Shown here in pieces: positions 51,240 to 63,006 of a stretch of 64,000 bases of DNA. A program made the position numbers and the translations under genes. Origin of the DNA: Salegentibacter sp. 24. GTDB lineage: Bacteria > Bacteroidota > Bacteroidia > Flavobacteriales > Flavobacteriaceae. The first letter of the stretch is position 1. Each line of letters opens with the position of its first letter. The stretch is from NCBI RefSeq assembly GCF_004362395.1, contig NZ_SNWE01000007.1, forward strand, positions 62,001-126,000. Reading direction: 5' to 3'. The notes under the pieces were generated by a model. The model ran no database searches and was not told the origin of the DNA. It saw nothing but the letters and a program-made list of their open reading frames with translations.

Positions 51240-51251
51240 TTGTGGAGAAAG

Positions 51252-51617
51252 ATGGAAGGCGAATACGTAAATATGTGGATAGAGGATGGTATTCTATTTG
51301 TAGAATACGGGGATAACCTTGGCCTAAACCAGGACATAGCTAGTGAAGTTATAAAAAACAGACTGGTTTTTCAACAAAATAAGGAATATCCGGTTTTTTG
51401 CGATACCTCGGGTGTAAATGATACAAACCTCCAAGCATTGGAAAAATTCGCAACAGAAGGGGTATTGCTCGTCAGTGCGATTGCATTCTACACTAAAAAG
51501 CCTCTTGATTACTACCTTACCGAATATTTCATAAAGACTTACAAAATAAAAATTTCAGCTAAGATATTTAAACATAAATTCGAGGCTCTTCAATTTTTAA
51601 AACCCTACATCCAATGA
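51252..51617 (+). CDS. Small STAS-like / SpoIIAA-like protein
   Basis: A 121-residue protein from ATG 51252 (a TTG at 51240 would add four residues). Alternating strands and helices (VNMWIEDGILFVEYGDNLGLN, YPVFCDTSGV, LLVSAIAFYTKK) resemble a SpoIIAA/STAS-like fold common in small Flavobacteriia proteins. No catalytic residues are visible. It is followed 23 bases later by an AraC-type regulator, so the pair is probably one signalling unit. Function unknown. Confidence 0.55.
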   Translation: MEGEYVNMWIEDGILFVEYGDNLGLNQDIASEVIKNRLVFQQNKEYPVFCDTSGVNDTNLQALEKFATEGVLLVSAIAFYTKKPLDYYLTEYFIKTYKIKISAKIFKHKFEALQFLKPYIQ

Positions 51618-51640
51618 AGTAATTCTTAAAATTTAAAATT

Positions 51641-52561
51641 ATGGGACGGGAGATTACAGGGGCACTATTGCAAAGTGTTTTCAATATGTTATATGAAACA
51701 GCAAAGGGGAATTTTAAAGTTCAATTTAAAAGAACGGAGTTTCGGGATGAGCTGGAAAGTATAATAGCAATAGCTAACTTAAATATTCAAAGAATAAACC
51801 AGAACAGGGATCAGTTCCTTTGGATAAACCGCCATAATGAGGTAGTGATCATTAGTACCGCTATGTTTATCCTGGATGAACAGCTAAAAATTTTGGATTA
51901 TAAATTTCAAGGTGATGTTTTTCAAGCAATAAAACACCTGGAGCATCTAGAGGGCGAATTATTTGAATCCTTACTAGCTATGGATTCTCAGGACGAATGG
52001 AGAAATAAAATCCAGGATTTGATAAGCAATGAAGAACGTTTTTTAAGCCTTGTCTTAGCCTTCGAATTTCATGATGGTTTAGTGCTTAAGTTGAGCACAG
52101 AAATTATCAAAATATCCCATAACATTGATACCAGGTTTACCATCTACGCTTCCATGCTTGATACCCAAAAAGATGAATTTTATAATCTGAGGATGAATGA
52201 TTCAGTTCAAACGATCTCTATATGGGATCAGGAACTTTTCCTAAAAATTGAAGCGGATATCTTGCAACATCTCAATGAACCCTCACGTAAAAATTATGAA
52301 CTGGCACTTATTTATGGTACTAATGAGCATAAAATAAAGACCGGCTTTAAAAAAGTATATGGACTCACTCCCACACAGTATCATAAGAAACAGCGAATCA
52401 AACACTGCAAAATCTTAATCGATAATACAGATCTTTCTTTAAAGGCTATAGCCTTAAAAATGGGCTTTAAAACCTATCCCAAGTTTTCAAGGTATTTCAA
52501 AAGCGAGGTGAAGATGACACCCAAGGCTTATCGGGAACGTGGTGAAAATCACGCTATTTAA
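51641..52561 (+). CDS. AraC-family transcriptional regulator with unusual N-terminal domain
   Basis: A 306-residue protein. The C-terminal 90 residues form an AraC/XylS DNA-binding domain: FKKVYGLTPTQYHKKQRIKHCKIL, the second helix-turn-helix LKAIALKMGFKTYPKFSRYFK, and MTPKAYR. The N-terminal 210 residues are helical and acidic with no known sensor domain that I recognise. It is probably co-transcribed with the small STAS-like gene upstream. Its targets are unknown; the DUF6520 gene lies 209 bases downstream. Confidence 0.82.
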   Translation: MGREITGALLQSVFNMLYETAKGNFKVQFKRTEFRDELESIIAIANLNIQRINQNRDQFLWINRHNEVVIISTAMFILDEQLKILDYKFQGDVFQAIKHLEHLEGELFESLLAMDSQDEWRNKIQDLISNEERFLSLVLAFEFHDGLVLKLSTEIIKISHNIDTRFTIYASMLDTQKDEFYNLRMNDSVQTISIWDQELFLKIEADILQHLNEPSRKNYELALIYGTNEHKIKTGFKKVYGLTPTQYHKKQRIKHCKILIDNTDLSLKAIALKMGFKTYPKFSRYFKSEVKMTPKAYRERGENHAI

Positions 52562-53139: not shown

Positions 53140-55989
53140 TTATTCCATTTTTACTTCGTGCATGTATTCTGGTTTTAAATATCTTTTAGCTGTTTGAATG
53201 ATTTCCTTAAAAGTTAGGTCTTTGAGATAATTTTCTATAATTGATGATGCTATTGGAGGTTCCTCAAATCTGTAATATCGATACAACTTCCTTGCAATAT
53301 AAGAAGGCTGATTGAGTGCCTGGGGAGTGTAAATGGATCTTATTCTGTTTTTTTGATTTTCAAATACTTTTCCCGAAATATCACCTTCTTTTAAATTCTC
53401 AATTATTTTATTTGTTTTTTCTCTTATGATAGGTAATTGTTCAGGTAGGCAGCTGAAACGGAACTGTACTTCAAATCGTTGTGTCCTTCTATCAAAATAG
53501 GCACCAGCACTAATTTTATATAATGAAAGTTCCTCTTTATCCCTTAAGTCATAAATTAAACTATTAAGCACCATGCCTAATACCCTCATCTTTAGTTCTT
53601 CTTGCCAAACTTTTTTGCCTGGAGGATTATGAACAAATCTTATTCCATAAAATGAATTTTCTGTTTGATAAAGGTCTGAGGCACTTAGCTCATAATATTT
53701 GGGACCATTAGGTATACTAATTGCTTTGTTTTTCCTATTACAATCCGTTTTTGCATTGGAAGGAATATTCCCTACATACTTCTGAAAACTAGTGACCACC
53801 TCATCACTATCAAAATCACCAGTAACAATAAAAGTGAAGTTTTCCATATTCCTAAAAAGTTCTAGATAATTTCTATGTGCTACATTAAGATTCACCCTTT
53901 GAGATGCTTTTACCAAATCTGAGGCTATGGGAAGCCTTGTGGAGTCTCTCGTTACTTTCTTCAAAGCATCAATAAGGTCGTTTGAGGGGTTTATAATATA
54001 TTTAGCATCCTGTAAATACCCTTTTTTCCAGTTTTCAAAAGCTGCTTGGTCTTTACGAGGTTTAGTAAAATATAAATATAAAAGCTGAAGAAATTTATCT
54101 AATTCTTTAATAGATAATTCAGATTCAAACCCACTTTCATTACTGAAGATATAAGGATTAAACCCCAATTTTATTGATTCCGTGTTTTCATAAAAATTTT
54201 TTAAATCCTTCTTTTCATAAGATCCGACTCCTGAGCTTCTCATAATTGATGTAGCAAACATTGTACTGGTGTATTCTTCTTTAGGATAACAAGAAGCCCC
54301 AAATGGTGAAAATCCCCGAATAGTTAAAGTGTTGGAATTTTTGCTTTTCATAGGTTTTAGGATGAGTCTAGATCCATTCTTTAATATATATACTTCAGAA
54401 TCTAACTTTCCTACTTTACCGATCAATTTTTTACCATTTGGCAGTGAATCCAGTTGGTTTTGGCTCAATAATCTTTTTATTTCAGATTGAGGTTTATATG
54501 GAAGCACTTTTTCCATAGCTTTTTTCTTAATTATTTCCTGGGTCTTTTCTTTTGAGGACAAAGAAGATTCGCTGTCCTCAGGAAATATCAAACCCATTTT
54601 ATCGGGGCAAGGTTTTATTATTTCCTTAATTAAACGATTTATTTCCTCCTTGGAAAGTTTTGATAGCCAATTTGTAATGATTTCCTTTTTATTAGACGGC
54701 AGGGCTTGGTTGTTTACAAAATACCTCTCTATTTCTTTTACCCAATATGGGTTTTCCGAAGTATTATAAGATTCTAGGGTTTCTAAACTATTATCTTTGG
54801 CATTTTCAAATTCTTCTTTTTTAATTCCATATTCTACGAATTGTCTTAATATATATAAAGTATTTTCCAGTGCTATTTTTTCATATTGCAATTCAGTATT
54901 GATAGTAATATTTAACATATCTCGTGGGATATCCCAGACTGGGGTATATGAACTATAAATAGTTGTTTTATCGTCTATTTTAGAACTTTCATTAAATCTC
55001 GTTTTAAGTATATCCGCAATAATTTCTCCCTTTATTTGTCTTTGTAGTCTGCCCAAACCTTCATCCTTTTTTTTGTCGACCTTATGTTTATAAAAAAGAT
55101 ACATGTTGACAGCTTTAAACTCATATTTAGAATTTCCATTTGAATTTCGCACAACGCTTGTAAAATTCTTTTCACTCTTTGGATTACTTTGTTCCTTATC
55201 TTTGGGTTCTATTTTATTTTCTGAGGACTTTAATTCCTGGAAAATGGATTTAATGTTCTCTTCTAGTTGTGCAGTATTTTCTATATTCCCAACAATTATC
55301 ACAGCCATTCGCTGCGGTTGATACCATTTATTATAAAATTTTTGTAAATCATGGTGCGGAAAATTTCTATTATGGTAAGAAAAAGATTTTGTTCTATTAA
55401 CTATAGAGAAGAGTGTGCTGTGCACATCATTGTACGCTGTTTTTTGAGCACGACTGGCCACACCACCTCGATATTCCTGCAACAGTACACCTCTTTCCCT
55501 ATCTATACTTTTTTTGGTAAGGTCCAGACCTGAAGCAATGTCTTTAAACCAGAGTAAACCAGTATTAATTGCCTTCTCATTTTCATAGGGAACATTATAG
55601 AAATATCGTGTAACCCCTGCGCCTGTTCTTCCATAAATATCATACATATTCATCCCAAACTGGCTCAATATTTTAGAATTATTTTTAAGACCATCAGGGA
55701 AATTAACGCTCGGTCTAAAGGAGAGGTGTTCAATATGATGAGCGAAATTTAACTCATGTTGTTGCTCATCTAAGGAACCTACTTTTACTAGAAAATTCAT
55801 GGTTATTTGTTGATTAGAATTTTCCAGAGGTTTTATAAAATAAGTAAGGCCATTGTCTAATACACCTGTTCTTATGCTTTTATCCAGAGTCAAACTATCC
55901 TCAGAATTACGGGAGGAAGTTTGTGCTAGCACTGGTAAAACCCATACGAATATCAAAATCCGGGTTATTGATGTTTTTAATAATTTCAT
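53140..55989 (-). CDS. M16-family (insulinase/pitrilysin-type) zinc peptidase, secreted
   Basis: A 949-residue two-half M16 peptidase. The signal peptide (about 1-23) ends near VLAQ. The inverted zinc motif HHIEH is at 84-88 (His84, Glu87, His88), and QEYRG near Glu172 supplies the third ligand. The C-terminal half repeats the fold without the motif, as usual in pitrilysin-type enzymes. It is the last gene of an operon with susD- and susC-like genes, so it probably cleaves peptides taken up through, or at, the SusCD channel. Its substrate is unknown. Confidence 0.87.
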   Translation of the reverse strand: MKLLKTSITRILIFVWVLPVLAQTSSRNSEDSLTLDKSIRTGVLDNGLTYFIKPLENSNQQITMNFLVKVGSLDEQQHELNFAHHIEHLSFRPSVNFPDGLKNNSKILSQFGMNMYDIYGRTGAGVTRYFYNVPYENEKAINTGLLWFKDIASGLDLTKKSIDRERGVLLQEYRGGVASRAQKTAYNDVHSTLFSIVNRTKSFSYHNRNFPHHDLQKFYNKWYQPQRMAVIIVGNIENTAQLEENIKSIFQELKSSENKIEPKDKEQSNPKSEKNFTSVVRNSNGNSKYEFKAVNMYLFYKHKVDKKKDEGLGRLQRQIKGEIIADILKTRFNESSKIDDKTTIYSSYTPVWDIPRDMLNITINTELQYEKIALENTLYILRQFVEYGIKKEEFENAKDNSLETLESYNTSENPYWVKEIERYFVNNQALPSNKKEIITNWLSKLSKEEINRLIKEIIKPCPDKMGLIFPEDSESSLSSKEKTQEIIKKKAMEKVLPYKPQSEIKRLLSQNQLDSLPNGKKLIGKVGKLDSEVYILKNGSRLILKPMKSKNSNTLTIRGFSPFGASCYPKEEYTSTMFATSIMRSSGVGSYEKKDLKNFYENTESIKLGFNPYIFSNESGFESELSIKELDKFLQLLYLYFTKPRKDQAAFENWKKGYLQDAKYIINPSNDLIDALKKVTRDSTRLPIASDLVKASQRVNLNVAHRNYLELFRNMENFTFIVTGDFDSDEVVTSFQKYVGNIPSNAKTDCNRKNKAISIPNGPKYYELSASDLYQTENSFYGIRFVHNPPGKKVWQEELKMRVLGMVLNSLIYDLRDKEELSLYKISAGAYFDRRTQRFEVQFRFSCLPEQLPIIREKTNKIIENLKEGDISGKVFENQKNRIRSIYTPQALNQPSYIARKLYRYYRFEEPPIASSIIENYLKDLTFKEIIQTAKRYLKPEYMHEVKME

Positions 55990-55992
55990 ATT

Positions 55993-57378
55993 TTAATATC
56001 CAGGGTTTTGAGTTAGGTTAGCGTTCTTTATTCTTTCCTCTGCTGGGATAGGATAGCGCAGATCCGTTTCTTCCCATAATGGATTATTCTCCCATATATG
56101 TTCATACCTGCCTGTTCTCTTAAGATCTAACCATCTATGACCCCATTCGGTAAATAATTCTTTGCTACGTTGTTCCATTATTTCATCAAGGAGTACTTCA
56201 GTTTCGAGATTATCCGTATTGGAAAGTGGTGCCAGGCCTGCTCTATTTCGTATTGTATTAATATCTTCTATTGCACCGGTAAAATTTTTTTGCATAAGCC
56301 TGGCTTCAGCCCTTATTAAATACTGTTCGGCTAATCGTAGCACCATAGAATGCTCTGTAATTGGCTGCTCATTACTATTCCATATTTTGTATTTAAAAGG
56401 GAAGTAGGCGTTAAGGCTTTCATTATAGCTGATCCATTTTGACAATCGAAGATCATCCTCACTGAAATTTTCTGTAAAATTTTCATCTAATTTTACACTT
56501 GCCAAGAATGAAAAAACAGGATCTATGATAAAAAAATTACCTTCATTAGTATGTGTTGTTGCCGCTCCTCTTCCTGCAGGGGAGATCTGCCATATAGCTT
56601 CTTGGCTGTTAGCCAGAAAAACGTCATTCAACTCTTCTAGTAATACATAGGAGTTATCCGAAATAACCTGACTGCTCAATTCTTCGGCCTTTAGCCACTC
56701 TTGGTTGTAGAGGTGGACCCTAGCAAGTAAAGCCATTGCTGTATACTTATTGACCTGTGTGCTTATATTATTATCATCTGGAAGAACTTCAATTGCATCC
56801 TCTAAATCCAAGATAATTTGAGTATACACCTCCTCAGGAAAAGATCGGGAAGCAAGTTCATTCCGCTTGTAGTCGGTTGTGAGTATAAGAGGAACATCTC
56901 CGTAAAGGTTAACTAAATAGAAATAGGTAAATGCTCTAACAAATTTGGCCTCTCCCTTCAACTTATTTTTAACCTCAGAACTAATATTTTCAGATGATTG
57001 TAATCCTTCCAAAAAAGCATTTGTAATATAAATCATATTATAGGCACTGGTCCAAAGAAATAGGTTTGAAGTGTTTTCAGGAGTAATCTCGTGCTGTTGA
57101 AATTCCATTCGGGTAAGGTTCGTTTCCCTGATGTTTTTAAGGAGGTTTCCTGAGAGGGCACCTAAAACTGTCACCCCATACTGCGTTCCATTACTAAAAG
57201 ACGTCCTGAATAATTCATTATAGATTCCCTTCATAGCGCTTTTAGCTGTTTCTTCACTACTAAAAACATCATCTCTTATAATTTTATAATCGGGAGCATC
57301 AACCTCCACAAAGTCTTCGCAGCCAATCAAAATGGATGCGATAAAAATGACAACTATCTGTTTTATTCTTTTTTTCAT
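55993..57378 (-). CDS. SusD/RagB-family outer-membrane nutrient-binding lipoprotein
   Basis: A 461-residue lipoprotein from the ATG at 57378 (two codons inside an alternative at 57384). The lipobox is ILIGC. The TPR-rich N-terminal part has YNMIYITNAFLEGL and AKFVRAFTYFYLVNLYGDVPL, hallmarks of SusD proteins, and the C-terminal domain ends AEARLMQKNFTGAIEDINTIR then ELFTEWGHRWLDLKR. It forms the lid of the SusC channel. Eleven to seventeen bases separate it from susC upstream. Confidence 0.93.
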   Translation of the reverse strand: MKKRIKQIVVIFIASILIGCEDFVEVDAPDYKIIRDDVFSSEETAKSAMKGIYNELFRTSFSNGTQYGVTVLGALSGNLLKNIRETNLTRMEFQQHEITPENTSNLFLWTSAYNMIYITNAFLEGLQSSENISSEVKNKLKGEAKFVRAFTYFYLVNLYGDVPLILTTDYKRNELASRSFPEEVYTQIILDLEDAIEVLPDDNNISTQVNKYTAMALLARVHLYNQEWLKAEELSSQVISDNSYVLLEELNDVFLANSQEAIWQISPAGRGAATTHTNEGNFFIIDPVFSFLASVKLDENFTENFSEDDLRLSKWISYNESLNAYFPFKYKIWNSNEQPITEHSMVLRLAEQYLIRAEARLMQKNFTGAIEDINTIRNRAGLAPLSNTDNLETEVLLDEIMEQRSKELFTEWGHRWLDLKRTGRYEHIWENNPLWEETDLRYPIPAEERIKNANLTQNPGY

Positions 57379-57395
57379 GATCATAATTTTTATAA

Positions 57396-60386
57396 TTAAA
57401 AGTAAATCTGAAGACCGGCAGTTAGTGTACGCAGGTTTGCAAATGAAGTATTCGAATATGACAGTTCAGGATCTAGACCTAAATAAGGAGAGATTGTAAG
57501 CAGGTTCTGGCCCGCAATAAAAATTTTTCCATCCCTTAATCTGAAAGATTGTAGAAGACTTTCTGGTAAATTATATCCTATCGAAAGTGTTTTTAACCGT
57601 AAAAAAGAAGCATCCTGAATAGGTAAATTCGAATTTAGGACATTGTTATAAGCTTGGCTGAAGGATGGTAGCTGAGAAATTCGTTGGAAATCTTCGTTTG
57701 AATTTAAAGCGTCTAAAACTATATCCCGTTGATTACTAGGTCTACCGGCATTAAAAAAGGAAGCAATACCTTCCTGTTTTATATACTGCCATAAAAATTG
57801 GAGGGTAAAATTTTTAAAACTAAGGTTGTTATTTATTCCGCCATAATATTCTCTGGTTAAATCCTGGATTACTACCCGGTCTTCATAATCAAAGCTTCCA
57901 TCATCGTTAATATCCATAACCTTGTATAACCCCGTTTCTGGATCAATTCCTTCATATTGATACAATAGAGATATATTTACAGGATGGCCAATCCGATAAG
58001 TATTTGCGTAAGAAGATTGTTCAATTCCCGGATAACTTATTAATCTGTTTTTTGGGATACTAAAATTCAATGAAGTCTGCCAGCGAAAATCATCTGTGTG
58101 GAAATTTAAAGAAGATAATTCCACTTCCCATCCACTATTCTCTACAGTTGCAGGAAGATTGGCCTGTACGGTATTGAATCCTGTTATAGCAGGTAAGGGA
58201 TATCCTACCAATTGGTTTGAAGAACGGTTACGATACCAGCTTATCCCAAGGTTCAGTTTGTCCTTAGAAAAACCTAATTCTAGTGCGGCTTCCAGCTTTT
58301 TGTTGACTTCCCATGAAAATGAGGGGTTAGCCAAGGAAACTGGGTATAATCCTCCAGGGCCAGGAGTTGCTTCGTATGCATCCAGGTATCCGTAATCGCC
58401 AATTTGGTCATTTCCAGTAGTACCATAACTACCCCTTAACTTTCCAAATGAAAGAAATGACAGTGCATTTTCAATTAATTCTTCCTCAGTGAAAATCCAA
58501 GCGGCACCTATTGCGCCGAAATTCGAAAAACGATTTTCCGGACCAAAGCGCGAAGAGCCATCACGTCTGCCGGTGAAATTTATAAATACTTTTTTCTTCC
58601 AGTTAGTGCCGATCCGTGCAAAGACTGCTGCATACCTGTACTGGTTTGTTTGGCTTGAGGCATTTATCACGCGCTCAGCTGCATCTAGATTTCCAATTAA
58701 GGATTCCGTTACATATCCAGCTCCTTGGAATCTCAGCTGGCTATTTGTATTATCCTGAAAGGTGGCACCTATTATGGCGTCTATGTTGAAATTACCGAAA
58801 CTATCATTAAAGATTAACTGAGGTTCCAGAATCCAGGATCTTCTATGGGAATTTAAATGAAAGGAATTGTTAGGTTCTCCTTCTGCTGGATTATATGATC
58901 TGCCCGGGCGTTTCATTAACTCCTGACTTTCAAAATATGTATAACCAGCATTTAATCGTACCAGTAAGTTATTTAACACCCGGTACGATAAACCAAGGTT
59001 TGACAATATATTACTGGTTTTTGTTCTGCCACGATTATAATAACCGGCTAGAGGATTTTCTAAATCTGATACTGCCCATTCTTCCCAATTTAAACTACCA
59101 TCTTCCGCAAAGATTTCAGGTGCATTTGGGGGCAGCAAAACAGTTGACGAACTTAAGCTATTGCTCCAGAAAAGGTCATTCATATCTACCCCGTAATTAG
59201 CAGAAAAATTAATTTTTAATTTGTCATCTTTAGAGGAATGGTTTAGGTTAAGATTTCCAGTTATTTTATTATAGCTATTTTCTCCTGGATAAACCGTACC
59301 CTGTGAAAAATATGAGCCACCTAACCTAAAGAAAGTTTTATCGCTCCCTCCTGAAAAAGAAAGATTGGCATTAGTGGTTTCTGCATTTCCCCCAAAGAGA
59401 AAATCTTGCCAGTCTGTATATCGATCCTGATCCCAAACAAGTAGGTCATATGCATTATTCACTGTAGGCTCAACTCCATCATTTTCAAAAGCTCTTCTTC
59501 GAATTTGTAAATACTCTTCTGTATTTAATAAGTCCAATCGATTAGCCACTGTTGCTACCCCTGAATATATACTGGCTTCTAAACCAGTTCCACTTTGTTT
59601 CCCATTTTTGGTAGTTATTAATACAACCCCGTTAGCTCCTCGAGATCCATAAATAGCGGTGGCATCTGCATCTTTTAAAACTTCAATACTTTCAATATTT
59701 GAAACACTTAGGTTGTTGAGTGGATCAAAACCGGCATTACCTATCATGGAATTTGTTTCAACAGGGCTGGAATTAATAGGTACTCCATCAATAATATAAA
59801 GCGGAAAGTTTCCTTCATCCCGTAAACTGTTTATACCTCTAATTCTTATTGTGGAAGCTGTTCCGGGGACACTTCCACCGGGAGTAATTTCTACCCCGGC
59901 CATTCTACCTTGTAATGCTTGTAAAGGGCTTACTACAGGTTGAAATTCTATCTCCTCGGCCGTAACCTTAGAAATATTTCCCGTGCTTTCTCTCTCTGTG
60001 GTATTATAATACCCGGCATTTATTTTAACTTCACCAAGTGCTGCAATATCTTCCTCCAGTTGGATATTGATTAATTCTCTTCCATCTATATCAATTTCCT
60101 GGGTTTTGAAACCTATGAAAGAGAACACCAAAGTCCCGTTTTCTGGAGCTACAATGGTATATTCCCCATCCAAATTGGTTACACTACCTAGTGAAGTACC
60201 TTTAACTGTAATTGTTACACCGGGAATAGAAATTCCCTTCTCATCTTTTACTATTCCCGAAATTTCATGCTGTTGTAAGAGAGGGGAAGAGATTATTGCT
60301 GCGTTTGCAGACTTTGACAGAAAGAATATTATCCCGCCAAGAATAATTAGCGCCACCCATTTAAGGCGCGAGTAATTATTTTTCAT
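57396..60386 (-). CDS. SusC/RagA-family TonB-linked outer-membrane transporter
   Basis: A 996-residue TonB-dependent channel. Signal peptide, then a carboxypeptidase-like domain (about 42-115: SGIVKDEKGISIPGVTITVKG), a plug with RIRGINSL and LYIIDGVPIN (about 180-205), and a 22-strand beta barrel ending in a terminal aromatic residue. With the SusD and M16 genes it makes a three-gene uptake operon. No glycoside hydrolase is near, so peptides are a better guess than glycans as cargo, but that is inference. Confidence 0.95.
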   Translation of the reverse strand: MKNNYSRLKWVALIILGGIIFFLSKSANAAIISSPLLQQHEISGIVKDEKGISIPGVTITVKGTSLGSVTNLDGEYTIVAPENGTLVFSFIGFKTQEIDIDGRELINIQLEEDIAALGEVKINAGYYNTTERESTGNISKVTAEEIEFQPVVSPLQALQGRMAGVEITPGGSVPGTASTIRIRGINSLRDEGNFPLYIIDGVPINSSPVETNSMIGNAGFDPLNNLSVSNIESIEVLKDADATAIYGSRGANGVVLITTKNGKQSGTGLEASIYSGVATVANRLDLLNTEEYLQIRRRAFENDGVEPTVNNAYDLLVWDQDRYTDWQDFLFGGNAETTNANLSFSGGSDKTFFRLGGSYFSQGTVYPGENSYNKITGNLNLNHSSKDDKLKINFSANYGVDMNDLFWSNSLSSSTVLLPPNAPEIFAEDGSLNWEEWAVSDLENPLAGYYNRGRTKTSNILSNLGLSYRVLNNLLVRLNAGYTYFESQELMKRPGRSYNPAEGEPNNSFHLNSHRRSWILEPQLIFNDSFGNFNIDAIIGATFQDNTNSQLRFQGAGYVTESLIGNLDAAERVINASSQTNQYRYAAVFARIGTNWKKKVFINFTGRRDGSSRFGPENRFSNFGAIGAAWIFTEEELIENALSFLSFGKLRGSYGTTGNDQIGDYGYLDAYEATPGPGGLYPVSLANPSFSWEVNKKLEAALELGFSKDKLNLGISWYRNRSSNQLVGYPLPAITGFNTVQANLPATVENSGWEVELSSLNFHTDDFRWQTSLNFSIPKNRLISYPGIEQSSYANTYRIGHPVNISLLYQYEGIDPETGLYKVMDINDDGSFDYEDRVVIQDLTREYYGGINNNLSFKNFTLQFLWQYIKQEGIASFFNAGRPSNQRDIVLDALNSNEDFQRISQLPSFSQAYNNVLNSNLPIQDASFLRLKTLSIGYNLPESLLQSFRLRDGKIFIAGQNLLTISPYLGLDPELSYSNTSFANLRTLTAGLQIYF

Positions 60387-61470
60387 AATTTTACGTGTGA
60401 TTTAAATGAAACTTTGTTTTATTTAAGCCTAGGCCTTCCCCACCAGACGGCAATCTTAGGGGAAGGTCCTCTGCTTAAGGCTAATTTGCTCTTATTTTCA
60501 TAAACAATTTTTTTTTATTCTAAACCGGTGCCCAAATACCGGTTTCACTAAAACCTATTAACCAATACTATTTGCCCAAGGCTCCAGTGGAGCCCCGCCC
60601 AAAAGCCGTTGAAAAATATAGGGCTTACAACGGCAACCCACGGGATTGTTTAAGAGATTTTTCCTGCTCCCGCAAGCGAGGAATTAGTGAATACAGCTGC
60701 GATATTGAACCGTTGGCCGCTTTGGCCTGAAATAAATTATAGTGTATATTAGTTTATAAAGTATCAAAAACCGGCCCTGCTCACCTAAGAATGCAAATTT
60801 TAGATTTGCACGAATAGGTAAAACCTATTACATTTATAGCATTGCGAATAACCATATAATGTAGTGGTCTTATCCCATGTGCAACGCCTATGTAGTTTGC
60901 ACAGGTAGCGGACCGGTATAACCGGGCAAAAGGCAGAGCTTTTTGCTACCGGTTACGCCCTCATTATTCTGGGGCGCATTTAATGTTTTTTGATATCAAT
61001 TGTAGGGATAGGGGCTGTGGTTTACTGCTTTGAAGCGAGTGAGAGAACTTTACCATTAATGAATGGTATGTACGCCTTAAGATATTTATTTTTCTCGTTT
61101 TCATAGTCGTAGATTATGTAAACGATGTGTTTAAAAGAAGCACGAAGGGATTCATGATTGGTAAGAATACCAATAGGACGAACTCCAATGCTCTGGTAGT
61201 GGCACCGCTAAGAGCCGCCACGATTAAATCATGGTTCCACAGAGGCTAACATGGAGAACGCCTTATTGGATTTATTACGAAAATACGATAAAATCCAATA
61301 TTAGGCGACTCCACGATCAGCTCACATGGAAATTTAGCGGTTTTCTACTGTGACTGACATCGTTTTGAGAGAATTTAATTCACTCTCTTAATTATCGCTA
61401 ATACTATTGGGATCAAATATACAAAAACTTTTTAAATAACCCACTATAGTGGAGTAAAAAAAATTAATTG
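60387..61470. other. 1.08-kb hairpin-rich non-coding region
   Basis: No gene-like frame on either strand, yet perfect inverted repeats lie side by side. Paired arms: 60431-60441 with 60459-60470 (11 pairs, one bulge, extended by 60423-60428 with 60473-60478); 60522-60529 with 60538-60545; 60580-60585 with 60589-60594; 60605-60611 with 60628-60634; 60663-60668 with 60675-60681; 60792-60798 with 60804-60810; 60813-60819 with 60823-60829; 60878-60884 with 60897-60903; 60904-60909 with 60945-60950; 61051-61057 with 61062-61068; 61157-61163 with 61168-61174; 61260-61273 with 61291-61306; 61367-61371 with 61383-61387. Loops are mostly 3-13 bases. GC content looks higher than in flanking spacers. 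It may be a large structured RNA or several stacked elements. Strand unknown. Confidence 0.5.
61441..61452. promoter_or_regulatory. Palindromic operator candidate of the XRE-zeta module
   Basis: A perfect 12-base palindrome, CCACTATAGTGG, ends 18 bases before the ATG of the XRE regulator at 61471. Its position suits binding by a dimeric helix-turn-helix protein that controls its own operon. Confidence 0.45.
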
Positions 61471-61830
61471 ATGGTAGAGGAACTTAAGGTTATAACAATG
61501 GCAGAATTTGACTATCACTTAATGCTCCACATAAAAAAATTGAGGGAAGGAAGGTTTAGCCAAGAGGAACTAAGTAAAAAGATGGGGCTAAATAAAAGCT
61601 TTGTAGGTAATGTCGAATCTCTACTACAACCTCAAAAATATGGTACAAGGCATATTTCTCTTTTAGCTAAGGCTTTCGGATACAATAGTATTGATAAGCT
61701 TTTAAACTTTTCTACACCAAAATACGACAAAGTTCATATTACTATACGGGTTACATCTAAAATGAATAGTGTGGGTTTACCATCCAGAGGAAAAGTAGTT
61801 GAGGTCAAGAAGGTTGAACCGGTTGAATAG
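61471..61830 (+). CDS. XRE-family helix-turn-helix regulator
   Basis: A 119-residue protein from ATG 61471; an alternative ATG at 61498 would drop nine residues. The HTH lies at about 20-70 (HIKKLREGRFSQEELSKKMG then LNKSFVGNVES). The C-terminal part is basic and short. It is the first gene of a three-gene set ending in a zeta-type toxin, so it is the likely repressor of that module. Confidence 0.8.
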   Translation: MVEELKVITMAEFDYHLMLHIKKLREGRFSQEELSKKMGLNKSFVGNVESLLQPQKYGTRHISLLAKAFGYNSIDKLLNFSTPKYDKVHITIRVTSKMNSVGLPSRGKVVEVKKVEPVE

Positions 61831-61983
61831 TATAATATATTCGATAATACCTTTATTCTTCGAAGCATTTGAAAGTAAACCCAATGCCAATAATAATGAT
61901 CCAGAATGCTTAGCTTACAACAGTAATTTGTTTGCATAAATCCTCGAAAAATTGTAAGTTTATAACTTAGTTTCTTAGTGCAA

Positions 61984-62271
61984 ATGGAAAATAATAGAAA
62001 ATATAAATTAAGAAAGGCAGCTTTAAAGCCTGGCGTAAAAAATAGGAGGTTTAAAGTGTTGGAAGATGATAGAGATCTTTCCTTTATAGGAGCGATTGCT
62101 GCTAGTGCTACAAATGAGGCTTATCATAAGGCTATAGCGATTTCAGAGAGTATTATCGAAGTAGAAGATGGTAAAGTAATTCGCAAACAAAAGGATGGAA
62201 GTTTTGAAGTTATTCAAACCTTAGCACCTCGAAAGTCAGTACAAAAAGGAAAAACAATTACCATACCTTAA
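61984..62271 (+). CDS. Small basic protein preceding the zeta-type gene (candidate antitoxin)
   Basis: A 95-residue protein from ATG 61984 (GTG 61978 would add two residues). Basic N-terminus (NRKYKLRKAALKPGVKNRRF), then FIGAIAASATNEAYHKAI and a short VEDGKVIRKQKDGS hairpin. I know no family for it. It ends six bases before the zeta-like gene, the usual place of an antitoxin. An antitoxin role is inferred from position only. Confidence 0.55.
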   Translation: MENNRKYKLRKAALKPGVKNRRFKVLEDDRDLSFIGAIAASATNEAYHKAIAISESIIEVEDGKVIRKQKDGSFEVIQTLAPRKSVQKGKTITIP

Positions 62272-62277
62272 TTTATT

Positions 62278-63006
62278 ATGGCCAGCAAAAGATTGCGAAT
62301 GTTTGCAGGTCCTAATGGCTCCGGAAAAAGTACCATTTTTAATAAAATACGTTCGCAATTTAGTCTGGGTATTTATCTTAATGCCGATGAGATTGAGAAT
62401 CTTCTGCGCAACCGGAACCAGTTGTCCTTAAAGGCATTTAACCTTAGTGAATCCCACGGAATAAAATTTAATAAATTTCTTCAAAATCATTCTCTTTTCC
62501 AAAAAGCTTCTTCCCAAGGTTATAGCATAGACCTTAATTGCCAAAATGGTATAATATCTAACCCTAATAATGCCACGCATTCGTATGAGGCTTCAATTCT
62601 TACGGATTTTTTAAGAACCGAATTAATTCAGGCTGGTCAAAAAATTACATTTGAAACGGTAATGTCACATCCTTCTAAAATAGAAACACTAAAGAAAGCC
62701 AAGAAATTAGGTTATAAGAACTACTTATATTTTATATGTACAGAGAATGTAGAAATTAATAAAGCGAGGGTTGAAGAGCGTGTGAAGAGCGGTGGTCATA
62801 ATGTGCCTCCCGAGAAAACAGAACAACGATATTACAGAAGTCTTGAACTACTGCCGAAAGCAATAGAAAATTCTTACCGGTCATTTATTTTTGATAATAG
62901 TGAAAATACCTCGAAATTAATACTCGATGTTTATCAGGGCAAAAAAGTTACTTTTCAAACTGAAGAAGTACCGCTTTGGGTAGATAAGTATTTTTTGAAT
63001 TTATAA
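62278..63006 (+). CDS. Zeta-toxin-like P-loop kinase
   Basis: A 242-residue P-loop protein. Walker A is AGPNGSGKST (about 10-19), followed by YLNADEIEN with the catalytic-type Asp and ITFETVMSH, then a lid region rich in Arg (ARVEERVKSGGHNVPPEK, QRYYRSLELL). This is the layout of zeta-type toxins, which phosphorylate UDP-N-acetyl sugars. It lies six bases after a small gene and shares an operon with an XRE regulator. Confidence 0.8.
   Translation: MASKRLRMFAGPNGSGKSTIFNKIRSQFSLGIYLNADEIENLLRNRNQLSLKAFNLSESHGIKFNKFLQNHSLFQKASSQGYSIDLNCQNGIISNPNNATHSYEASILTDFLRTELIQAGQKITFETVMSHPSKIETLKKAKKLGYKNYLYFICTENVEINKARVEERVKSGGHNVPPEKTEQRYYRSLELLPKAIENSYRSFIFDNSENTSKLILDVYQGKKVTFQTEEVPLWVDKYFLNL

Follow-up and report, generated by a model that had tools for sequence, protein, structure and literature searches.

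A conserved RNA leader of several modules precedes a susC-susD operon in Salegentibacter sp. 24 and its relatives

Introduction

In the stretch of DNA analysed here (the window, 64,000 nucleotides from a contig of Salegentibacter sp. 24), about 1.1 kb lies between the start of a susC gene (60386, minus strand) and a divergent HTH gene (61498-61830, plus strand), with no open reading frame longer than 52 codons and with short hairpins standing almost in a row. The question raised by this locus is what such a region represents. The original prediction stated that there was no gene on either strand, which holds insofar as the reading frames are this short, and it read the region as one large structured RNA or a stack of several elements, not covered by any gene call; a joint lack of homologues, covarying pairs and a transcript, or a match to a known repeat or intron family, were named as observations that would speak against it.

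The claimed excess of hairpins is real. Between 60423 and 61452 there are five perfect inverted repeats with arms of at least 7 bases and loops of 3-8 (60523, 60792, 60813, 61051 and 61157), whereas dinucleotide shuffles carry 0.48 on average, in line with the earlier estimate of fewer than one by chance, and 3 at most, with 0/300 shuffles reaching five. With arms of at least 6 and loops of 3-10, seven occur in the same stretch against 2.3 expected, and 1/200 shuffles had as many. Folding of 60400-61390 as a whole yielded z-scores of -9.0 for the minus strand and -6.2 for the plus strand (20 shuffles each).

The adjoining operon and its relatives

The genes flanking the region are the following.

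57396-60386, minus strand: susC, of the TonB-linked SusC/RagA type (996 aa), first gene of the operon (Pfam Plug, CarbopepD_reg_2 and TonB barrel)
55993-57384, minus strand: susD (Pfam SusD-like_3 and SusD_RagB)
53140-55989, minus strand: M16 (insulinase-type) peptidase, third gene (Pfam Peptidase_M16 and M16_C)
61498-61830, plus strand: divergent small HTH gene, Cro/C1-like, with its frame open from 61468 (HTH_3, E 0.00099, below the Pfam cut-off)

Searches with the leader DNA revealed three further places in the same genome and matches in 14 of 99 genomes, the window's own included, three of which (G021, G089 and G091) gave short weak matches only. Strong matches mostly start within 5 bases of the base adjoining the susC start. 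All 25 first-round loci, window included, carry a susC relative (52-100% identity; 47-100% across all the loci seen), and in 24 of them the match reaches the susC start, the exception being L040 (genome G044), where it stops some 430-560 nt before susC. The 340 nt at the 3' end recur directly before susC paralogues in the same and in related genomes, and similarity to the M16 gene follows susC-susD in 6 of the 17 susC contexts checked. On these sequence comparisons, the hairpin-rich region is the roughly 1.0-kb 5' leader, on the minus strand, of the susC-susD-M16 operon, facing the divergent HTH gene. A standalone RNA unrelated to susC was considered and set back, since the match adjoins susC in 24/25 loci.

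Two points were absent from the original prediction: the region is the minus-strand leader of the adjoining susC operon, and its copies recur together with a divergent HTH-like gene. The latter, of varying type, was seen upstream in most loci (by eye, with a 70-aa cut-off, at which L038 has none). Pfam scans of ten divergent proteins gave an HTH model at E<=0.001 for six (the window's at 0.00099) and at 0.0011-0.035 for three, with no HTH match for one; five of the ten pass a Pfam cut-off. Genes further upstream vary between loci.

Behind the HTH gene, at 61978-63006, stand a putative antitoxin gene (97 aa, no Pfam match) and a zeta-toxin gene (Pfam Zeta_toxin), whose opening residues look nearly identical in the copy at L026 (genome G014), where leader and susC diverge much more. 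Downstream of the operon, 51240-52561 holds an AraC-like gene (by eye) and a 125-aa gene, and similar DNA was found about 8-9 kb from the susC start in several other copies. A conserved insertion site between shared flanks was dropped as an idea: in G014 the window's downstream flank is found at a different place, except for weak matches of the AraC-type gene. Small secreted-looking proteins are encoded downstream of the operon on the opposite strand in L084 (13700-13984) and L089 (16550-16885), and we take them to be DUF6520-like.

Conserved folds in the 3' part of the leader

The 3' part was resolved into a core domain, P1-P4, and a row of hairpins, P5-P7. The elements placed in the window are listed from the 5' side, all on the minus strand.

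60554-60681, minus strand: core domain B (counts from alignment A1, 20 sequences)
60663-60681, minus strand: P1, with loop GCGGG pairing with CCCGU at 60640-60644
60605-60634, minus strand: P2, in core domain B
60580-60596, minus strand: P3, in core domain B
60554-60561, minus strand: AAUAGG strand, in core domain B
60522-60545, minus strand: P4 hairpin (AAACCGGU/ACCGGUUU), with compensatory changes in relatives
60423-60478, minus strand: P6 hairpin with a conserved loop (counts from alignment A3)
60404-60424, minus strand: P7 hairpin just before the susC start, AAAUAAAAC/GUUUCAUUU (counts from alignment A3; double change at 1/8 pairs)

Two of the inverted repeats noted earlier, that at 60423-60478 and the element with 8-base arms at 60522-60545, are thus P6 and P4, respectively.

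P1 with its loop pairing downstream as a pseudoknot, P2, P3 and P4 are common to 20 leaders, in the susC sense. Across these sequences (L028, L040, L044, L045 and L046 of the 25 loci were left aside as lacking the core or carrying an insertion) 84.9% of cells are paired, and both bases have changed at 17 of 39 pairs, a result reached by 0/500 shuffles; when the structure was slid along the alignment as a control, 35-48% of cells paired. Counts of G.U against A.C (63 vs 17) favour the susC strand. Two alternative pairings of the P2 loop, GCCC with GGGU and CCUAUU with AAUAGG, share bases and were counted separately, and no double-changed pair was found in either. Covariation demonstrates a conserved pseudoknotted domain (P1-P4) into which the 3' half of these paralogous susC leaders is predicted to fold.

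The hairpin domain P5-P7 that follows P1-P4 is likewise predicted from covariation to be conserved, the covariation being thin here. In the last 100 nt (P6 and P7; L040 omitted, as was L030, a near-copy of L023) 93.6% of cells pair with little variation, 3 of 21 pairs are double-changed, and G.U and A.C counts are 11 and 10. A conserved upstream reading frame, MKRKVN, before P5 was dropped as a candidate, since the frame is not kept in the alignment (by eye). As a separate observation, at L034 (5857-5930) the opposite strand of P6 is followed by a U-run and resembles a terminator for an antisense RNA (sub-threshold Rfam matches).

Covariance models of domains B and C recover the window at full length, in the right place and orientation, with 122.2 bits (R1) and 106.7 bits (R2), the window copy being among the training sequences. 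By these models, the window belongs to the susC leader family for both domains.

The candidate promoter

A candidate start for the transcript was located by the position statistics of TAnnTTTG.

61414-61421, minus strand: Bacteroidota -7 promoter box TATATTTG

Of 30 loci (L038 omitted), 24 have this motif on the susC strand no more than 120 nt from the HTH start, where 3.8 would be expected, and one has it on the opposite strand; on the susC strand it was not found at L023, L028, L029, L035, L044 and L088. The full two-box promoter motif occurs at nine places against 2.2 expected, and is not found in the window. We infer that the leader is transcribed from a promoter at this box (about 61414-61421), next to the divergent HTH gene; the box positions imply 5' UTRs of roughly 0.6-1.1 kb.

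The S-RNA at the 5' end of related leaders

A sequence pattern identified a conserved RNA, some 185 nt long and referred to here as S-RNA, shortly after the promoter box in 19 of 31 leaders; a covariance model adds at least one leader, L087. Its nested helices pair in 88.4% of cells, with double changes at 14 of 43 pairs (0/500 shuffles) and G.U against A.C counts of 44 vs 27 (alignment A4). For 79 distinct sequences (alignment A5), 39 of the 43 pairs are double-changed, with 453 double-changed cells against 146 expected, in an alignment that was fitted to the S-RNA model and for which the search pattern itself had fixed helix S4. A pseudoknot-like extra pairing was also seen by eye.

The tail of the S-RNA repeats the 5' strand of two inner helices, S6/S7, and can pair with their 3' strand. 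The tail competes for this shared strand, so main fold and terminator would be mutually exclusive. The tail (T) helix has predicted energies of -19 to -26 kcal/mol and a mean z of -5.2 in 18 of the 19 S-RNAs, in a parse that required a U-run, so that the U-run of these 18 is not independent; one was not parsed. In the wider set of the pattern scan, at least five T follow the tail in 67 of 80 S-RNAs (on the susC strand; the other strand was not counted) and the T helix is modest, with z<-3 in 33/80. The main fold as a whole, at -51 to -66 kcal/mol, is stronger than the T duplexes, so that termination would need kinetics or a partner. The arrangement expected of an attenuator, mutually exclusive terminator and antiterminator helices with a U-run, is predicted in 18 of the 19 S-RNAs. 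A T helix that excludes the main fold is also predicted in six diverged leaders, the window's included.

The 5' domain of the window

The window carries a domain of its own in the place of the S-RNA.

61165-61400, minus strand: domain A1, S-like in layout (from folding)
61334-61341 with 61204-61211, minus strand: S4-like helix (from folding)
61250-61269 and 61170-61192, minus strand: terminator-like T arms (T duplex -21.1 kcal/mol, z -5.3)
60964-61104, minus strand: 46-codon open reading frame, with start, length and stop kept in five loci, window included (possibly coding)

The T helix of the window is followed by UAUUCUU, not a full U-run. The repeat noted earlier at 61260-61306 overlaps the 5' T arm (61250-61269). 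With filters off, the S-RNA model (R3) scores the window at best 9.5 bits, at 60730-60822 and not at the A1 domain, which we regard as diverged and, on modelled folds, S-RNA-like only in its layout of nested helices and a T helix. The domain is common to three relatives (L026 in G014, L027 in G002 and L089 in G044), and L023 and L028 carry a third version of the S-like layout.

The short reading frame invites a different explanation, in which the 5' part would be what remains of a small gene and its hairpins would be due to chance. Start, length and C-terminus (SI/LxKNIxCAPE) are the same in the five loci, in a nearly gapless part of the alignment. Between the window and L026, changes are spread over codon positions as 14/19/14, with no third-position excess, and 20 of the 27 changed codons are non-synonymous, which goes against both a small protein gene in domain A, a candidate that is not supported, and its remnant. 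The hairpins, moreover, exceed chance and have compensatory counterparts, and we consider a gene remnant very improbable.

Distribution of the S-RNA

At E<=0.01, the S-RNA model matches 67 of 397 genomes of the window's family, a lower bound given the strict filters, in 55 of 237 genera, and 12 of 15 genomes of its genus. An exact pattern scan of named genomes gave at least 117 stretches; all 80 of those listed match the model (L303 in part), and they include Flavobacterium, Chryseobacterium, Mucilaginibacter, Parabacteroides and others, together with two MAG contigs labelled Lentisphaerae and Pelotomaculum.

No Rfam 15 family reached the gathering threshold in the window. For eight further leader loci there was no match at the leaders, the only matches being to a group II intron and a tmRNA elsewhere (L041, 10601-10869; L043, 10322-10724); 12 of the 80 listed S-RNA loci gave none, and searches at E<=10 yielded sub-threshold matches only. 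A known non-coding RNA or intron is ruled out on the basis that neither the region nor the S-RNAs searched match Rfam. The proposal of a large structured RNA or several stacked elements has stood up well: there are homologues in relatives, the base pairs covary, no known repeat or intron family matched, and the region resolves into a row of stacked RNA modules.

Among 40 contexts chosen from the family and genus match lists, 17 S-RNAs stand with susC, 13 with a sigma gene and a gene of about 365 aa, and 10 with neither. For the 80 listed loci the corresponding numbers are 30 with susC, 5 with sigma/dCas12f and 36 with other genes, while 9 lie too near a contig end. A divergent reading frame is present upstream in 28/30 of the susC loci, 4/5 of the sigma/dCas12f loci and 16/45 of the remainder. 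Away from susC (L303, L322, L335, L336, L345, L287 and L352), the S-RNA precedes various genes, whose products we take by eye to be RteC, DHFR-like, LytTR and response-regulator proteins.

These contexts bear on two other explanations. The first is that the S-type RNA is an independent small RNA ending at its own terminator, the rest being a separate susC promoter region activated by dCas12f-sigmaE. It has its own promoter box and terminator, 45 of the 80 listed S-RNAs were not seen before susC or sigmaE (some being too near a contig end), and the P6 site discussed below lies 65-80 nt before the susC ATG; set against this, susC or sigmaE-dCas12f follows in 35/80 listed loci and 30/40 chosen contexts, and the downstream core domain is also a conserved RNA. 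We consider this a minority possibility. The second, a strict riboswitch in which the S-RNA or domain B would be an aptamer for the SusC substrate, could account for the highly conserved loops, the pseudoknots and the mutually exclusive terminator. It appears unlikely given the widely differing genes downstream of S-RNAs and the lack of a match to any Rfam aptamer.

dCas12f-sigmaE and candidate guides

In preprints from the Sternberg laboratory, pairs of dCas12f and sigmaE reportedly carry out transcription guided by RNA, at targets adjoined by a 5'-G. The effector genes, dCas12f and, in the copy scanned, the sigma partner, are present in the window's own genome, which has five dCas12f matches, on contigs C4, C21, C30, C32 and C38; those on C21, C30 and C32 stand with a sigma-like gene and an S-RNA leader. 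One of these five, at the L177 locus, was compared: the protein of about 365 aa matches the 'Nuclease-deactivated Cas12f' chain of PDB 9n9c from end to end (366 aa, E 3.4e-173), and the sigma protein beside it matches the RpoE chain of PDB 9n9q (E 6.3e-88). The protein is judged dCas12f-like, its probable nuclease-dead state being taken from the similarity to 9n9c alone.

All 13 dcas12f genes examined are followed by units that share a scaffold and differ at the 3' end, and the window's own genome has 11 strong scaffold matches; from their place and make-up the units are probably guide RNAs. Leader strands that the variable ends resemble are GCGTGGGCTC in the S-RNA (the strand for which main fold and terminator compete), CCTTCCC..AAGATT in P6, AATTAGCCTT in P5 and TTTGTGCCCTA in the P2 loop. 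The collection comprised 43 guides. Leaders from the same genome were available for comparison with 40 of them, and for 18 of these 40, which are not independent since guides are related to each other, the longest exact match was reached by at most 5 of 100 shuffles (p<=0.05); two of the 18 match best in antisense and one from inner offset 4, and a G directly precedes the matched stretch in only six. The other 22 match no better than shuffles. The best matches reach 14 nt in G004 and 13 nt in the window's own genome, with 12-14 nt in G000 (the latter genome), G004, G010 and G013.

For the window leader itself, the best guide matches are of 10-11 nt only. The P6 site CCTTCCCCTAAGATTG (16 nt, 60451-60466) resembles one guide class and is preceded by A. 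The exact 16-mer occurs in its genome in the window leader and one other susC leader and nowhere else, and with three mismatches allowed there is no excess over a reversed control. Since the A1 domain escapes the S-RNA model and the guide matches are short, the links to a guided target are weak for the window copy, which is no more than a candidate for this role.

Matches to dCas12f occur in 19 of the 397 family genomes (fragments in G317 and G429), 18 of which also carry S-RNA; 49 further family genomes have S-RNA without this dCas12f. Core model R1 matches four of the 397, all four with dCas12f. Within the genus, ten of the 15 genomes have P6-type leaders, and each of these ten belongs to the 12 in which dCas12f is matched; two of the ten (G006 and G008) hold fragments of it only, and G003 and G009 have dCas12f without such a leader. 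The idea that the S-RNA is itself the guide RNA was rejected, because guide-like units with another scaffold sit after dcas12f and because of the 49 S-RNA genomes that lack dCas12f.

Guides of this kind would act on DNA, and this, with the divergent HTH genes, can also be accommodated by a pure DNA element, in which the hairpins would be protein-binding or recombination sites (HTH operators, cassette exchange) and the RNA fold incidental. The copies are indeed multi-copy and modular with blocks of different origin, as in the L027 leader, where one stretch of 330 nt shares 86% identity with another genus and the remainder 89% with a locus of the window's own genome. What makes a DNA element improbable is that base pairing is maintained despite sequence changes, in helices that have loops, pseudoknots and a G.U bias, and that the tail runs into a stretch of U on the susC strand (the only one counted).

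A model for the leader

The region is a real, conserved RNA leader of several modules, and it very likely has a regulatory role. We propose that it is ordinarily transcribed from the HTH-side promoter at about 61414-61421 and that its 5' part would act as a transcription attenuator, which in most relatives is the S-RNA, with one strand common to its main fold and its terminator, and in the window would be the diverged domain of similar layout in the same place. Attenuation by this part is likely on the modelled folds. The divergent HTH gene probably encodes a repressor that acts on the promoter region it shares with the leader. Across the family, dCas12f-sigmaE could also switch the operons on, given that guides resemble sites in S-RNA, P2, P5 and P6, and transcripts initiated beyond the terminator would escape attenuation; judged from sequence, such RNA-guided activation is plausible for the family. 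To this explanation as a whole, a cis-acting leader with conserved RNA, an attenuator and guided activation in the family, we assign a probability of about two in three.

A bolder version is offered only tentatively. Leaders of outer-membrane transporter operons might combine an RNA attenuator with DNA target sites of dCas12f-sigmaE, such that transcripts from the HTH promoter stop at the S-RNA terminator while transcripts whose start is guide-directed, within that terminator or beyond it, avoid the attenuator; with the same leader before it, the effector operon would also be targeted, rendering the circuit self-controlling, and the guide repertoire would tune the susC paralogues of each genome. 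The finding that only 6 of the 18 matches lie next to a G lowered its odds slightly.

Comparison with known systems

A literature search found no description of the leader or of a link between guides and leaders; preprints and most subscription papers lay outside its coverage, so it is no proof of novelty. The main text of PMC13418256 makes no mention of Cas12f. PMC8040213 reportedly describes thousands of candidate structured RNAs from microbiomes, which may include relatives of the leader.

Among the Bacteroidetes RNAs in Rfam are 6S-Flavo, Bacteroidales-1 and others. They are likewise structured, intergenic and from Bacteroidota, but none gave a gathering-level match to the window region or the S-RNAs searched. 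The S-RNA appears to be a widespread RNA family with strong covariation that is absent from Rfam 15.

As in attenuators and riboswitches, one strand of the S-RNA has two alternative partners, one upstream (S6/S7) and the other a 3' tail ending in a U-run. It differs in having no known ligand, leader peptide or protein, in its length of about 185 nt with a pseudoknot-like extra pairing (by eye), and in standing before unrelated genes. A structured RNA of this kind would offer a reason for the very long non-coding leaders of some Bacteroidota susC genes.

The likeness to the dCas12f-sigmaE systems (9n9c, 9n9q) lies in the five dCas12f matches of the window's genome, the L177 pair that matches both chains, and the scaffold units with a variable 3' end that follow; the difference is that the window holds a candidate target leader and not an effector. 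The S-RNA family is tied to two gene sets, the susCD transporter operons and the dCas12f-sigmaE effector itself. To our knowledge, neither an S-RNA leader with a divergent HTH-like gene common to effector and susC operons, nor guides resembling strands inside such a leader, have appeared in print. If the proposed links are true, they would provide concrete natural targets and a testable circuit for these newly described RNA-guided transcription systems.
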